A stretch of 64,000 nt of DNA from contig OX453275.1 of NCBI GenBank assembly GCA_949710005.1, positions 10,909,019 through 10,973,018 of the forward strand, in the 5' to 3' direction. Position numbers and translations under genes: made by a program. Within the stretch, counting starts at the first letter, position 1; every line of letters begins with the position of its first letter. Shown piece after piece: positions 1 through 14,700 of the stretch. The notes beneath the pieces were generated by a model that saw only the letters and a program-made list of their open reading frames with translations, was not told the origin of the DNA and did no database searches. The stretch comes from Ricordea florida (Eukaryota; Cnidaria; Anthozoa; Corallimorpharia; Ricordeidae).

Positions 1-2356
1 TTGAAGCAGTAATTTTGCAGATGACCCCCACCCCCTCCAATTTCTAATACCATAGAGATTTTTATCAGAGAGCACAAATCAAAAGAAAGAGAACTCAATT
101 TCAGATTAAAACATTATGACAAAAAAGTGTTGCTAAAATATTTCAGGTGATTCCTCTTCTCCCTAATTTTTTTTAATTTTTTGGGTTGCCCCCCTCCCCC
201 GAAAGAAAATCCCACCATCCCCCACCCTCCTCCCTCACAAAAAAAATGGCAATCATTGCATGCTGAACTTCATATGTTTGTGTTGTGACCCTATTTCAAC
301 TAAGCTGTCAGTAGCAATGTTTTTATTGTTGGACTCCTTGACTTTTACTCTTTGTTTCAATTCAGACATATCTCTTGTTTTGGACGTATCCTTTTTGATT
401 GTCATGTAAAAGCGTTAAGGTCCTTTAATCCGAGCAACATTTTCGTTCAACCTTTCGCGCAACGTTCCATTGCAAGTTGAAGAGATTTGGTATCCGTATT
501 ACCACCTACTAGAGCAACTTGTTATACAACCAAATCCAAGGTTGCAGATCGCAGGTTGCAGCAACATGTTGTGCAAAGTAGACTTGAGTATCACCTTCTG
601 CAATAAATGTTTGTTTTGTTGCTTGTATTAACACTCCCGCCCACGTAGGTGGTAAGACGGGAACAACGCCTTTCAACTTACAATGCAACAACGTTGTGCG
701 ACAAGTTGAAAGAAAAAATTTTGCTCCTATTACTGAGCCTTTATATCCACGGTAGAGAAATTTCAGTGTGGTGGTGACTTACTATTCCAAATTTCTATTG
801 CATGGATTTTTATTTTATCAGGAGCCCAGTAATGGGCTCCTGATCATTTTATTTATTTATTTATTTTTTTTTTGTAGTTGTTGCTGTTGTTGTTTTTGTC
901 GTTTTTTTGGGCTTTTATTGTCCGAGACGAAAAATAAAACTCAAAAGAAGAACCTCTGAATTGACCTCTTACTTTGTGCGTGTTGTTGGCAAAACGCAAA
1001 AAGTAGTCGGCCAATTTCCAGCCACTCTGAGTTACTCGCGATCAATAGCCCTTAAATATCGAGCGCAGTATACCAAATATTGGAATTCAATAGACAAGTC
1101 TGGATAGTCTCAGAGGGTTCAACAAACACTTACAGAAGCTCCCCTTAACTTCCCGCAGATTTCTATATGGAATGGTCCACGTCTATTAGCACTAACATGC
1201 TGAAGACAGACTGTCTTCGTTTCCTATAAACGAAATATGCCTCCAACAAGAGCCAAAGATGCAAGTGACAAACAGTCTCGTACCGAAACTAGGATGTTTT
1301 CCGTATCTGTTTACTGTTTCTTCGAGCTCAGATTGCATATTATTTCAAATATTTATTTCTAACATTGTTAGTATTCGTGCAAAACGTCCTATAGTAAATC
1401 CGGCCCTTTCGCTCGTACATAGGTGTACGGGCAATTTTTTGCCGGGGGGGGGGGGAACCATTTGCCCAAAAATTCTCGCAAGTTGCCCAAATTTTTACGA
1501 AACAGTTGAAAAGAAACGAGGGTCATATGGTGCACTAACACAGGCCTACATATGAAGTGAAAATATGAAAATGAAATGAAAATATGAAAATGAAATATGA
1601 AAAGAGAGAGAGAGAGAAACACGATTGTGGTGTAAGGTTTTTTTTTGTCTAGACTGTGCTATTGACCTCAGTTTCTGGAAAACAGCTACTCTAGGATACT
1701 GAGTGATTTGGGGGATTTACTCTAGTATAGGGTAGCAAAATTCAGCTGAACCAGCTCTGGTATAAGCTAAAGGCTCCAGGGTTCCAGCGGCACATCCCCA
1801 CTCAGAAATTCCTAAAGTACCCCCCGGGCGTTAAATCCACAAAGTACCATATTTGGAAAGCAAGAGAAACCAAATGAACCAATCAGTGGCAACAAGCTCG
1901 AAGACTGGGTCAAGAAATTTCCTACTAGTAGTTTTATGCACTGTAGTTACTCTCGATGCAAAACGCTATAAACATTTTGTTATTCAAACATTGTAATTTT
2001 ACTCTACCTTATGTTAAATATTACTGTAAATTGCATACTATGTCCGCAATAACAACTCTCTTTTTGTTTGAAAATTCTCCCAACCGGTCGTGTAGCTAAC
2101 CCTAAGTTTCTAGTGAGTTCATAATGGATGTGTATTTTGTCAATATATCTATAATTGAATGTGGCGAAATAAATAAATATGGTACTAGGTAAATGTTAAA
2201 TCCAGACAAGCTGTGAACGCGGTTTACACGTTTCAAGTCTTGTGGGTTTCTGCTATCACCCATCGATTCCTGCCTACTGTGAACTCCAGACTTGAAGCAA
2301 GACTAATCTGCAGTCAGGAGCCGATTACTAGGAGCTTCCATCTCCCATACATCCCC
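1..2356. other. Intergenic, no gene seen
   Basis: I see no coding signal. The stretch holds T-rich low complexity around 841-905, a G-tract at about 1443-1455, an AAATATG/AAATGA-type simple run at 1558-1600, and AT-rich spacer. Short open frames here have no recognisable domain. Confidence 0.6.
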
Positions 2357-2361
2357 TTGGA

Positions 2362-2668
2362 GCAAGAGAAAATGAGGAAAGAGAACATAACCCCGTCTGA
2401 TATGATAAGAGGACATAATCTATTTTTAGCGCGGAATCTATTTGTATCTCGTTCAATGGCTGCGCGGTTTCCCAATACCGCAAGTGGAAAGTCGAGGTCG
2501 AGTGAAACATGATCCCCATGGCACATTGAAGTTACAACCACGTGATGAGAAGGACATCAGCCATTGGTCAGTTAAAGTAGTTTGAGGATCTAAAAATAGA
2601 TTCTGTCCCCTTATCATAGTAAGAGAGCCCAGTATGGAAGGTGCGTTCTCTTACCTCATTTCTCTTGC
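2362..2668. mobile_element. MITE copy A, GCAAGAGAAA-type TIRs, 5-bp TSD
   Basis: Inverted arms begin GCAAGAGAAAATGAGGAAAG and end with the reverse complement. The element is flanked by TTGGA on both sides (2357-2361 and 2669-2673). Both arms carry a TGATATGATAAG/CTTATCATA core and a TCTATTTTTAG/CTAAAAATAGA motif. A second copy lies at 52979-53226. There is no transposase, so it is non-autonomous. The superfamily is unresolved. Confidence 0.75.
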
Positions 2669-2819
2669 TTGGAGTCAACCCTTACTGTTGAAAAGTTGTT
2701 TGTAGAAATGGTTTTCGGGGCAAAATTGTCAATGCGTAATAACTAATCAACCAATCAGAGCGCAGTTCAGTCATGCTCATCTACATATTTTGTTTTTCTG
2801 AAGAACTTTTGACAACAAT

Positions 2820-2865
2820 GGCAGAAAGCGTGGTAAGGGGGGGGTGGGGGGGGGTGGGGGTGGGC
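2820..2865. repeat. G-tract (GGGGTGGGGG) low-complexity run
   Basis: Near-pure G/T run with several runs of seven or more G. It could form G-quadruplex DNA. No other function is visible. Confidence 0.6.
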
Positions 2866-2962
2866 GCGTTATGCAGACGTCCTCGGAAACAATGTATTTT
2901 CGCGGGAAAGCCTGTTCCAAAAATAATTCTTTACGGGAAAGGGTTGATTTAAGGGTACAGCA

Positions 2963-3121
2963 CATATGGGCATATAATTCATGGTAGGCCGCCATATAGT
3001 CACCAAATATAGTGTTTGTAGGGGTATGCAAGGGTTTACAAAGGTATATCCTTGTAAACCCTTGTATACCCCTGTAAACTGACTATATGGTGGCCTACCA
3101 TGAATTACATGCCCACATATG
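2963..3121. mobile_element. Foldback/palindromic MITE
   Basis: The two halves are near-perfect reverse complements: the left arm carries TTCATGGTAGGCC and AAGGGTTTACAA, and the right arm carries GGCCTACCATGAA and TTGTAAACCCTT. The centre is at about 3049. A transcript would fold into a long hairpin. No open frame explains it. Confidence 0.75.
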
Positions 3122-3838
3122 GAGTCTCTAAGTAATCGGCTCCTGCCTGCAGTGGAACGCATGTTTGAAAATAACAAATATATGGAACCCTGAATAGTAT
3201 CAGTATAGTTCCAAGTAATATTTACTAGGTAATATTTTCAGTGTAAGGAGTCTGTATATCGATCTCTTCTGGCAGTGACAGCATATTAATGTTTACCTTC
3301 CCATTCGTTGTCTAGACAGCCAAAATTTGTTAGGGGTAGGAGGGGAAGGAGAGGAGATTTTCCAGTTGTCGTTGACTCCTTCATTGGCTGTTTCGAGGTT
3401 GCACGGAAGATTGGGTCGAATTTTGAGCGAGATGCAATATGGGACTGTCTTGGGGAACGCCGTTTATCGTTTGTTGTAGGTCGATTACGAAAAATTGATC
3501 TTAGTTCTATCGTTCAAAATGTGGGATACTTGAAAACCCGTTATTTCAACCAGATGTATGCCCAGCAAGACCAACTAAATAAATAGATGGTCTATGTCTT
3601 ATATCCAGCGCCCAGAATACTGCATTGTTAGTGAGAAAATTAAGTTCCACAGGTTTCAGTGGACAATAAAGAAAAATTGATGACCGTTGTCAAGTCAAAT
3701 GCCGCGTATCTTTTTTTGCATTTTTTGAGTTCGTTCTATTTGAGTTTTCCATTAGTCAGCAGCATATGTATCTGGCACAGGAGACATTAATAAATAAAAG
3801 GATGCCTTCTCTGATGTTTTGCCGTAAAAGGAACTGTT

Positions 3839-8700: not shown

Positions 8701-11700
8701 GAAAAGGTTGAAGTTCTCCATGACCTCTGTGACTTTAGATTAGATGTAGAAGATGTTCCTGAGTTGTTAAAGGTACATGTATTTAGTCAACCAAATGTTT
8801 CTCTTGTCTGCACGCTGCATTCGTTGGCATAATTCAGATCTGGATTTGTGATTCACAATTACTCAGACCATGATGCATCAAAAGAAACAATGAATCCACT
8901 CTGGGCAAGGATTTATCAGTTTCTTTGATGAACCATGATCTGTCTGATCCAAATCCAGATCTGAATTGCAACAAACAGGTTGTTCACTAGGCATCGTAGA
9001 TCAGAGAATTATCCGGCTACTACAAAGAATTCTTTGGTCAAATTTATATGGCCTGAGCTAGTTTTGGAGCGCTTTTAAGATAATTATTCTCCTGTTACTT
9101 TACACAATTCTCCTACTACTAAAATTCTTATTGAAAACCCTTAACAAAGGAATGCACCCTTACACAAGATGATGTAATTTTATAAAGTGTTCAGAAACCA
9201 AGGTAAATGGCAAGTGGTTGCAGTGCAAAGTTTAAAACAGTTTTGTCATGATCTCGGTTTTTGAGACGATAGACCTAACACTTTTCCTGCAACAGGGAGT
9301 AAAAAGTGCATGCTAGAAGTTTACTGGACACTTCAGTTGGAGCTTTTGCTCCCTTTTTGTGATTCACCAGATGAGTCCTGCTCCAAATGTTGTCCTCTAA
9401 ATGTTACAGCTACTTTATTTATGATGAGCATGTAAGAATTCACACGTTTGTTAACAAAGAGGCAAATAAGCATGTGTTTAGCAATGAAAAGTTGACTGTT
9501 TTAGTTTTGCCCTAGAACTTCAAAGGTGTACTCTAAGTGTTCCTACGTAATTCTGGTTCATTTAGTTCCGTGCTGTTTGAAAGACAGATCTATATAAACA
9601 AGACACAAAAACAGTACAAAATGATTATTCCCAAAGGAATTTTCTTACATGAAATAAAATGTGAAACTTATCAGGTCCCCAAATGGAAACCCATGTGGAT
9701 ATGTTAGTTGAATACAACTAAAAGACTGGGATAAGAAATCATCCAAGAATTCAATCTGTGGTCACTACATGTATTTGAGAAGTGAACAAACTGGTTCGAC
9801 TGGAGAACTTCTTTCTCCATATATGATGAACATTGCGTTAGTGTTGTACATGCTCAGGGCTTGTGTTTGTCCTCACTGTTTGACCCCTGACTTTGACTCA
9901 GACATGGAAATCGCACATACCAAAAAAAACATGGCTATATTTGACTATGACAAAAAAAGAAGAAACAATGCAAATGAATTCAAGAATTCAACATAAACAA
10001 TTCAGTTGATTCAATCGACAAGGTGCCCGCAGTTGTAAACGCACTCTGTGCAAATATTCACCTTTTCAGTACACACAGAAACGGGGTTAAAGAGGATTGA
10101 ATCTCACGCTGGGCCATGTTTTACTTTTGCTCCAAGTTCCATGCCGTAGGTTAAACAAGCTTGAGTTTTGCTTCTTGACATCGAGTCTGAACTCTGAAAT
10201 GTAATTTGCCACACATGAATTCTACATTGCTTGGTGGCACAGTGGTATCGCACTTGCCCCTCAATCTGATGTTTCGCGAGGGCTCAAAGTCAAATCTTGG
10301 AATACACAAACATATTTTGACATATATTTGAATACACAAACATATTGTGCTTGCCTTTGGCATCCTGTGTAAAACTAATTTTTGTGGTATACTGAGTGGT
10401 GGCCAATTGATGTGTGATATCACTGATGCAGTAGGGTTTTGTTAATTCACTGCCATTTGTTATACCACTCTATTTTATGTAAGAAAAAGAATATTGCATT
10501 TCCTGTTGGTGATGAAAGATTTGTCTTGTCTTGATGAAAAATAAATATGAAAAACTAGAAGGAAACTTTTGCATTTCCACAAGGCCATTTGGTGTCTTCT
10601 ATATATCACTTTATTGATCTTTTTCTCTTGCTAACAGGGACTTGATGCAGACAGCTTACGAGTAGAGCCCTTGGGATTTGATGCTGAAGGGAGTACCTAT
10701 TGGTACTTCTATGGTACAAGGTTGTACCAGGAAGAGAAACCTCCAGAAAAGGGTGAAAAACCAAAAAAGAAATCTAAAAAGAAGAAAAAGATTGAGGCCA
10801 AGAACAAGAAAAAGAAAGGAAAATTGAAGAAGAAAAAGAAAAGCAAAGTATCATCCTCTGACTCTGAACCAGAGACGGACTCAAGGTACAGGCACCTTGT
10901 GTGTGATTATTATAATATATCTTAGTGATATCAGTGCACCATAAAGAATGCAGAAAACAAGAATATGTAACAATTGTTTTTCTGTGAAATTAAGGTGAAT
11001 AGTGGTAGAATATTCACTGAGCTGCAAATACATGTACCTCTGAAGCCACTGCTCACTGAGGTAGAAGAGAATTTAATAATATGTGACCCTCCATGGGATT
11101 TCAGGGAACAAGGTGAACACACACTCATTGTGGACATGACATGCTTAATGTGTTCTTATGCACATAAAAACAGTTGATTTTAGTTAGCGTGTTCCAAGCC
11201 ATTGTTTTTGTACTGTTTCTTTGTTTTTTTAACCCTTTCACTTCCAGAGTGACTTTATAGATTTTACTCTGTCTAACGCCAGATGATTTCACTCGTCATA
11301 TGGGGACCCTTGGGAGTAACCTGCGATCAGGCGATTTTTTTTTGGTTTTTGGTTTTTTGTTTTTTTGGCGGGGGAAAAAAAAATACGCCTGATACAATTG
11401 TTTGTCAATTCGTCTGCCGCCTCCTAATTAAAGGATCTGTCAACGGGAATGTGGGCCACGTCTACAGACAAGCGTGAACCAATCAAAATTTACCGGAAGT
11501 AGCTTCGTTGTCTGAGCTGTTAAGCAGGCTTATTTTGCGTCGTGTCGTATGGCAGTTTAAGATGAGTTTTCCTAAGAAGGTGAACAAAACATGCCACTCT
11601 TGTGCGATTAATGTTTCATCTGGAGAAGGCACTGTTCCTCTCTTTAAGCCACCGAAAAACAAAGAGTTTTCCGGGAAAAGTTTTTCTAAAACTGGAACTG

Positions 11701-14700
11701 TCATCCTCTCCGATCTTGTTAAGAGCGTCGGAATAGATATTGATTCTACCTCAGAAAGTGACTCGTCACTGTGTAAAAAATGTGCAAGGAAAATTTTCAA
11801 TTGTTGTACTATGTTTCATAAGCTGGAAGGATTTATGTCAAAGATCGTTTCTGCGAGCGAAACAAACGACGATGAATGTAGCGGTGTTGGAAATAAACGT
11901 CTTTACAGTGAGAATTATTAATCAACTCCCGGTTCTAAAAAGCAGAGAGGTTCTTCGTCCCGGAGAGCAGAAGGTGGGAGTAAATCGAGGAAAACGCTTT
12001 TTCAATTGAATTCTGCCTGGTCGAATATAGTCCAAGGGACTTACTACAGCAACAGTTATTTTAGTGCCATCTGCAGTCCGCCCCATATGCGACAACACTT
12101 TTGGTGTCAACTGGCGCTTTTGCCGAATCCCGTGGGAAGCACAGAGAAAACATCTTTTTTTCACAAACAATTCGCCGAATACACTCCCTTTGTTGCTCTT
12201 TAAGAGTTCTGTGCACAAAACCCTCGAGAGACGCATCTAAAGCTGATACAAACTCGCTTTCTCTGTCTTGCACTACCGCCACCATGATGAAAATTCGTCT
12301 TGCTCAGAGTATTCTTAGACCGGATGTGAAACCTCTTTACAGGTAACCAATCAGAATAAATGTTCATGTTGTCTATTGTTTCACGACCAATCGGAAAGAA
12401 GTCCAGATTCTGGACTAGATGCAGACGAATTGACAAACAATTGTATCAGGCGTATTTTTTTTTCCCCCGCCAAAAAAACAAAAAACCAAAAACCAAAAAA
12501 AATCGCCTGATCGCAGGTTACCTTGGGAGTGAAAGGGTTAATAAGGTCACTTTATTTGTTTCTTCAGCGCAGTCAATCGTATACCGAACTGTGCATGCTG
12601 TGAAGACAATAAGGCTCCAGCAATACTTTCTGTAGTTTCTTGCCTATGATACGCTAGATTAATATCCAGTTAGTTGTTTTTGCTAAATTGAAAGCAGACC
12701 AGAACAAAGGATATTTGTTTCACAATTATGAAATTTCCAGAAACAGCAAAGTCCCGTTTGAATGAAAGCACACATGTTATCAGTGCTTTGCGTGCATTCA
12801 CTTATGTTTCCATGCTTACGCATAAAAGATAGGACACAACTCAACAATTCACTATCACTCTTTTTCCTGTTCTAGCTATGATGCAGGCTCAAAATCATGA
12901 ATATTCGTACTTTCTTTTGTGCAAAAAAGAAAAGGTTTCCCTACAAGGCATTCATTGCTGGCCATGTAGAACTGGTATACAGAGTGTGCTACAGATGTTT
13001 GTTTCTCAAACATGGAAGACATGAAAAACAAGAGAAGAATGAACACAAAACAAAGAAACAATTCCATTTTGTGTATTAGAGGCAGCATTACTTTAAAGTG
13101 GCATTTAAAAAACAGCAATTTGCTCATCAGAAGATGCTCTGAATTCAGTCTGCGTTCCACAGCACAAAGTTATGTTGAAATGTAGACTTAAATGCGAGGA
13201 AAGGTAAATAGCACAATCATTTTGTAACCTCGATTTGTGTGGTAAATGCTAACTGGGTGAATTTTTGCAAAACTTCGTAACAAAGGTGCGGACAAAAAAG
13301 CTTAGGATTAAAGGCTGGGGAAGGAAAATTTACTTTTCGTGATTGTGTTGGTTGCATTTAAGCCCTAATTTTGTGTCCCGATTTGACGTTGGTTTTAATT
13401 TATTAAACCTCAATCCTTTTCTTGATACCTGGCATGCTATATTCGACAATGGACCTGACGATACACATGGATGTCGAATCTAATCCTGGTCCATTAGTCC
13501 TTCTTTGACTGAAGGAATACATCGTGAACATGATGTCAATCCAGGATACAGGTCTTTGATGTGTTCTACCTTAAAGATGTCGAATCATGTCTATAACAAC
13601 TCTACACTTGGTTCGCCATTGGTGCAATTTGTTTCGAGCCCTCGTTGGAACTGTTCACGAAATATGTACTTTCAAGGCAATTTCCGCCAAAGGAGATTTA
13701 GGGGATCTAGAGCTGGAAGGAAGGTTCAGGAGAAAAGAATGCGCTGCTCATATAATATTCAAACTTTGGTTTCAAATCCAAGTTCCCAATCAAAATCTGC
13801 ATATTCCAGAAAGAATTCTAATTGCTCAAACCACAGCAACTTAACAATAATACCGCGTCAACCGTTTGATAGAGGAAATACATCGGGGACTCGCCCTGTA
13901 AATTTCTGCCTTCTTAACACGCGTTCAGTAAACAACAAGACTCTTATCATCAAAGACTTTGTTGCTGAGCATTGCATTGATCTACTTGCTGTAACGGAAA
14001 CATGGTTGCAACTCTGCGTCCGGCTGCACCTTGGTATTCTGAAGAAATAAACAATTTGAAGAAAGATCGCAGGAGACTGGGGCGGCGTTGGCGAAGGACC
14101 AAACTTCCAGTCGATCGCCAGTTGCTTATTGACCAATGTCGTGTCGTCAACTCTTTAATTTGTTCTTCCAAGAGAACGTACTACACTAAGCTGATCAGTG
14201 ATAATCAGACGGACTATAAACTTCTTTTCAAAACAATTGACAGTCTATTACATAGAAAGTGTGATATACCATATCCGCCCTGCAACTCGCCTTCGGATCT
14301 CGCAAATAAGTTCGTCGAGTTCTTTTCTGATAAGATCACCAAAATACGGGTCGACTTAGACAATGCAGCTCTCATCATCCATCAAGTTCCTGAAGTTAAC
14401 CGGGTCTGTCCTTATACGTTTGATGAGTTCAGTTTGGTAGATGTTGACGAAGTCCGCAAATGTGTTGTGAAATTATCTTCCAAGTCATGTGATCTTGATC
14501 CTCTTCCTGGCTATGTCACAAGAAATGCTTTGAGCACACTGCTTCCATTTATCACCAAGATTATAAATACTTCGTTGCAATCTGGCCAAATGCCCTCTCA
14601 ATTAAAAGTTGCTAAGCTACGTCCTCTTCTTAAGAAGCCTTCTCTGGATCACACGCAGTTTTCAAATTATCGCCCTGTTTCGAATCTTACTTTTCTCAGC

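Follow-up and report, generated by a model that had tools for sequence, protein, structure and literature searches.

Within a 64,000-nucleotide stretch of the corallimorpharian Ricordea florida genome (GenBank assembly GCA_949710005.1, contig OX453275.1, positions 10,909,019 to 10,973,018; hereafter the window), we identified a transposable element of ~1.2 kb at 11317-12520. It is a short, non-autonomous copy with terminal inverted repeats (TIRs) of ~100 bp, an internal-deletion derivative in which the starts of two convergent genes, one transposase-like and one encoding a RecQ-like helicase, have been joined. Its non-autonomous family is new but belongs to a kind of transposon already known, and the element is probably a derivative of an AcademH-type cut-and-paste DNA transposon.

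As claimed in an earlier note on this DNA, the TIRs are flanked by an exact 9-bp target-site duplication (TSD), CCTTGGGAG, on both sides (Table 1), and the sole difference between the TIRs (101 and 100 nt) is one T in a T-run. The tip TAACCTGCGATCAGGCG, with up to three mismatches allowed, was found at two places in the window, both of them TIRs, compared with a mean of 0.11 in shuffled sequences. The tip core recurs in inverted orientation ~70 bp inside each TIR (ACGCCTGAT in the left one), which suggests two putative facing binding sites per end. Inside the TIRs, the plus strand carries the C-x2-C...C-x2-C open reading frame (ORF) described in the note. The minus-strand helicase fragment does contain the reported Q-motif, Walker A and motif Ia, but no single open frame of the window copy holds both the QQREC... 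stretch and VAVVSPL; in other copies, the same stretch is a single frame. None of the three unaltered window ORFs matched Pfam at E values up to 1, and a hand-joined helicase piece matched DEAD alone, below the cut-off (E 0.037).

The abundance of the element was assessed by searching the whole genome (538 Mb, 48 contigs), which gave 132 matching pieces (best 40 of 80 candidates scored). Among the pieces listed are 12 full-length copies (1-1204), the window copy included; they are dispersed, 94-100% identical and diverge from their majority sequence by a mean of 1.1%, and all 12 start with TAACCTGCGATC. Their 9-bp TSDs vary in sequence and are exact in 11 copies, with one mismatch in the other. 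Four more copies have both TIRs, of which L015, L017/L018 and L024 show an exact 9-bp TSD. Thus, for the 16 copies with both TIRs, the TSD is exact in 14, has one mismatch in one and is absent from one (L014 and L016, with one TIR seen, were left out of this count). The exact TIR tip occurs at 133 places genome-wide, compared with none for the reversed control. Among the 100 of these 133 places that were listed (exact matches only), many TIR pairs are just ~100 bp apart, and several, such as C13:28084968-28085111, look like tiny elements of ~100-150 bp, apparently consisting of two inverted ends alone.

In the window element, the helicase side (...TATATTCGAC) joins the transposase side (CGACCAGGCAG...) at a common CGAC. 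The joined junction string is exact in 11 of the 12 full-length copies, and therefore a single deletion product has multiplied. Two longer TIR-bounded copies have other breakpoints: L015 (2200 bp, TSD TATCCACTT) extends further into the transposase-like gene, and L024 (1483 bp, TSD CCTATCTAG) further into the helicase. The ZAD-like ORF of L015 continues, apparently over an intron, into a second exon of ~260 residues, for which Pfam returned nothing above cut-off. In L024, a frame of 203 aa matches Pfam DEAD above cut-off (E 6e-9). Its 127-aa helicase part matches NCBIfam RecQ (E 2e-10), far below the cut-off of the full-length model because the sequence is a fragment, and phmmer found no match to this fragment in the PDB at 0.001. 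The note's RecQ-like label for the window fragment is supported, and it draws on this longer copy.

The note also proposed looking for copies of 4-12 kb that share the TIRs. The listed places, 100 of 133, revealed no parent whose TIRs are exactly these, and there the widest facing pair less than 15 kb apart spans ~2.9 kb (C6:213632-216510). The closest helicase match outside the short family, among the best 150 of 609 candidates, is 49% identical, and in the partial copy L016 the sequence breaks off into Ns. Loss of the parent, a gap in the assembly, divergence of its tips or a position among the unlisted places may each account for this. Three loci with 107 bp at 78% identity to the helicase 5' region, L021 (C14:12155187), L022 (C11:555823) and L023 (C6:22309886), were considered as candidate parents and rejected, as they look like another family, possibly one with captured gene pieces. 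L021 and L022 have different ends (GGGTGTCCGGAAACC...), and L022 contains repeats of CTAAGACCCGGAAAA together with a fragment of kinase-like appearance.

Longer copies with both genes are nevertheless present in the genome, as the note had proposed, with lengths of 8.4-9.1 kb; they carry other TIRs and belong to families other than that of the window element. A genome search with the second exon of L015 yielded 21 matches, seven of which were looked at further. Three of the 21 (L055, L056 and L057) sit 4-6.5 kb from a convergent RecQ match. L057 is 8424 bp long, with perfect 149-bp TIRs and a 9-bp TSD (AAGGGAAAG); L055 is 99.8% identical to it, and L056 is its internally deleted sister (9-bp TSD GGGTATCGA). 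Three further places were fetched, and in all three a helicase gene, or at least exon 1 of it, lies in convergent orientation; for L058 and L060, the helicase table had shown none nearby. Both convergent genes are found in L058 (8869 bp, perfect 81-bp TIRs, 8-bp TSD CCTCCGCC) and L060 (9073 bp, 18-nt tips with one mismatch, 9-bp TSD GGGGTGGGG), and L059, with an 8-bp TSD, is a deletion derivative in which the starts of both genes are joined as in the window element. The TIR tips of the window element (TAACCTGCGATCAGGC), L057 (TAGACTGCGAGCAGTC) and L060 (TAGCCTGCAGAGCAGGC) are alike. The 6-kb deleted element of L056 lies in a region (L056 1-712 and 6682-7601) with a frame resembling the packaging ATPase of Polintons or adintoviruses.

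The gene content of the relatives was assessed in L055. Its minus-strand gene has a ZAD-like module at the start and DUF6589 at the end (E 2e-23, above cut-off). The note had envisaged the ZAD-like protein as a separate partner of the helicase; it is instead the N-terminal part of the DUF6589 gene, and the transposase that the note expected in an autonomous parent is putatively DUF6589, encoded by that same gene. The plus-strand gene of L055 matches DEAD and Helicase_C (E 2e-17 for each, both above cut-off). RecQ models lead the NCBIfam matches for both helicase exons, below the full-length cut-offs because the exons were scored apart, and the named PDB matches are led by Bloom, RecQ1, RecQ4 and RecQ. 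A RecQ-type helicase with both helicase domains is present in L055, L058 and L060.

The genome contains at least 103 DUF6589 matches (102 of 198 candidates scored), and none was found in 14 control genomes. Of the 103 listed matches, 24, representing 23 loci, have a listed RecQ match (best 150 of 609 candidates scored) no more than 12 kb away, and all 24 pairs are convergent. Random placement gave a mean of 0.63 such pairs and a maximum of 4 in 1000 draws. The count drew on every listed row, 103 for DUF6589 and 150 for RecQ, with the short copies of the window family among them; one locus holds two of the 24 matches, and in the draws the largest listed position served as the contig end for some contigs. 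By its position and this association, DUF6589 is a putative transposase. Three acidic motifs (DNID, GDQL and EGDG), conserved in three DUF6589 proteins, are candidates for its active site, judged from sequence conservation. The 26 best-scoring matches score alike, at 115-127 bits, and their open frames measure 554-693 aa, with most at ~614; they appear to form a young lineage with a single exon. Scanning viral_contigs with one exon of DUF6589 gave no match. DUF6589 appears in no paper of the one literature library searched, and its link to transposons may be new as annotation.

The ZAD-like label, also taken from the note, holds up weakly by score. The four Cys are invariant in all seven ZAD-like sequences compared, and three of the seven, none of them the window sequence, match Pfam zf-AD (PF07776) at E up to 0.1 (best 0.0026); the scores for the L015 gene (E 0.097) and L055 (E 0.98) are both below cut-off. 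A profile of the seven sequences aligns over nearly the whole domain to the zf-AD structures of ZNF276 (7ppp, E 0.0097) and Grauzone (1pzw, E 0.21), which have the same C-x2-C...C-x2-C arrangement, although a short stretch of PRDM9 ranks first (E 0.0035). Phmmer found no PDB match for the window ORF, and an AlphaFold single-sequence model of it was uninformative (pLDDT, the predicted local distance difference test, of 37). Unlike the zf-AD domain of zinc-finger proteins, the module here is attached to DUF6589 and scores weakly. These results suggest that the label is reasonable, as a prediction from sequence, rather than proven. A second set of ZAD-like first exons, 40-58% similar, was seen at L043-L050 and L052-L054; in L048 (C1:44637669) and L050 (C10:4221607), the same 17-nt TIR tip lies within ~0.6 kb of the ZAD-like exon, which suggests a further non-autonomous subfamily.

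Several known systems combine some of these features. TIRs are a feature of the Academ superfamily, and those found here measure 100 bp in the window element, 149 bp in L057 and 81 bp in L058. The title of a 2020 report by Kojima in Mob DNA (11:15), as cited in reference lists, places AcademH in animals and fungi. AcademH is taken here from PMC10045372 and PMC10799480; the former gives TSDs of 9 or 10 bp for AcademH and 3 or 4 bp for AcademX, linked to an encoded helicase and nuclease, and RecQ is named as an Academ helicase in PMC3627910. The present elements are likewise DNA transposons in which a helicase lies beside the putative transposase (L055, L058 and L060, with a 5' fragment in the window copy), and 9-bp TSDs occur in the window family and in L056, L057 and L060. 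Therefore, the combination of helicase and TSD very probably already has a home in the described AcademH group, and the note's view that no standard superfamily joins such features is not supported.

Some observations weigh against this assignment. The TSDs of L058 and L059, two of the five relatives outside the window family with TSDs read, are 8 bp long and so outside the AcademH range, and the flanks of L059 and L060 are repetitive or G-rich, weakening both TSD readings. L055 lacks the left TIR, and L013, a window-family copy with both TIRs, lacks a matching TSD. AcademH and the present elements were set side by side by description, in terms of helicase, TSDs and TIRs, and the putative transposase role of DUF6589 is assigned by position and association. 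Not every one of the 24 DUF6589-RecQ pairs counts as an independent event, given that L055, L056 and L057 are near-identical. For 18 of the 21 exon-2 matches, no helicase is listed nearby, although L015 lost its helicase by deletion and the three places fetched had one. Similarly, 79 of the 103 listed DUF6589 matches, all 26 best-scoring ones included, have no listed RecQ match within 12 kb. The pair count is a lower bound, with 150 of the 609 helicase candidates scored, and L058 and L060 are among the 79 yet carry the helicase.

A different classification would follow if ZAD-DUF6589 were a transposase class unrecognised so far. Together with the convergent RecQ gene it would then form its own superfamily, or at least DUF6589 would be the transposase of helicase-bearing elements, with about a hundred matches in one genome; we regard this as unlikely. 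That the ZAD-DUF6589 and RecQ elements are a separate, undescribed superfamily, merely resembling AcademH in helicase and 9-bp TSDs, is rather improbable. The 8-bp TSDs of L058 and L059 and the absence of DUF6589 from the literature searched are consistent with it. However, a helicase and 9-10-bp TSDs are the stated marks of AcademH in PMC10045372, RecQ is named for Academ in PMC3627910, and the cited title places the lineage in animals and fungi.

Helitrons likewise encode a helicase, but it is of the Pif1 type and accompanied by Rep/HUH, and they have neither TIRs nor TSDs; a Helitron was ruled out by the RecQ-type helicase and clear TIRs found here. A Kolobok element was also rejected, since Kolobok makes TTAA duplications, whereas all 12 full-length copies have varied 9-bp TSDs (one with a mismatch). 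According to PMC9587614, KolobokH and Kolobok-1_CCri carry a RecQ helicase, which in Kolobok-1_CCri is on the complementary strand, as here; KolobokH is there reported from fungi alone, and the TSDs here are 9 or 8 bp and of variable sequence.

The window element could also be read as a Mutator-like element (MULE) in which ZAD and RecQ fragments are chance acquisitions. Such elements have 9-bp TSDs and long TIRs, as do the copies described here, and MuDR is grouped with TSDs of 4-10 bp in PMC10045372. However, the two-gene ZAD-DUF6589 and RecQ design differs from theirs: each fragment represents the 5' end of a gene, the two genes occur side by side in convergent orientation between the TIRs of L057, L058 and L060, and all 24 nearby DUF6589-RecQ pairs are convergent. 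No MULE family is among the Pfam matches of eight L055 ORFs (E up to 1) or of eight ORFs of L058, L059 and L060 (E up to 0.01). Chance capture by a MULE is thus very improbable. An ordinary host gene pair or pseudogene between unrelated repeats, which the open reading frames taken by themselves would allow, is refuted by the 12 dispersed full-length copies of 94-100% identity with TSDs and is hardly credible.

The larger relatives carry a convergent pair of genes, and each gene begins immediately inside one of the TIRs: a transposase-like gene with a ZAD-like N-terminus, a long middle part and a DUF6589 core, and a facing gene for a RecQ-type helicase. The transposase may bind the TIRs, perhaps as a dimer via the ZAD-like domain, and DUF6589 would cut and join with a 9-bp (sometimes 8-bp) stagger, while the helicase could aid strand opening or gap repair. 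Internal deletions would arise from incomplete repair after excision, and the 4-bp microhomology at the junction fits excision-gap repair that stopped early. The short copies, the window copy included, would then have been moved by transposase acting in trans.

Table 1 Features of the deletion derivative and its insertion site in the window.
Feature	Position	Strand	Remark
Left TSD, CCTTGGGAG (9 bp)	11308-11316		Exact match to right TSD
Left TIR, tip TAACCTGCGATCAGGCG	11317-11417	+	101 nt
First part of exon 1 of the transposase-like gene: ZAD-like ORF with four invariant Cys	11562-11921	+	TAA at 11919-11921 cuts the frame in the window copy
Rest of exon 1 of the transposase-like gene, up to the deletion junction	11922-12023	+	Compared with the L015 gene
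Junction left by the internal deletion, with a 4-bp microhomology (minus-strand CGAC)	12020-12023		Common to helicase and transposase sides
RecQ-like helicase gene, 5' portion covering the Q-motif region, Walker A (LPTGFGKS) and motif Ia	12020-12303	-	Frameshifted in the window copy
Right TIR	12421-12520	-	100 nt
Right copy of the 9-bp TSD	12521-12529		Identical to 11308-11316
Older host miniature inverted-repeat transposable element (MITE), ~100 bp, TTAA ends, inverted ends CCCTTTCAC...	11229-12541		Split by the window element

The older MITE resembles the CMITEs of corals, which are related to piggyBac and were reported from Acropora in PMC2872659. Elsewhere in the genome, a partial copy of the window family (L014) is adjoined, at 2280-3763 of that locus, by sequence of a YqaJ nuclease-like and DDE_Tnp_4 transposase-like kind, presumably ISL2EU-like.

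An odd-looking element is thus explained as a deletion derivative. A mobile element is now linked to a ZAD-like domain and to DUF6589, a Pfam family so far unannotated, which is a modest gain in annotation, and the young, near-identical copies offer material for studying the role of a transposon-borne RecQ helicase. In a genome such as this, many gene models annotated as RecQ-like or DUF6589 probably belong to transposons.

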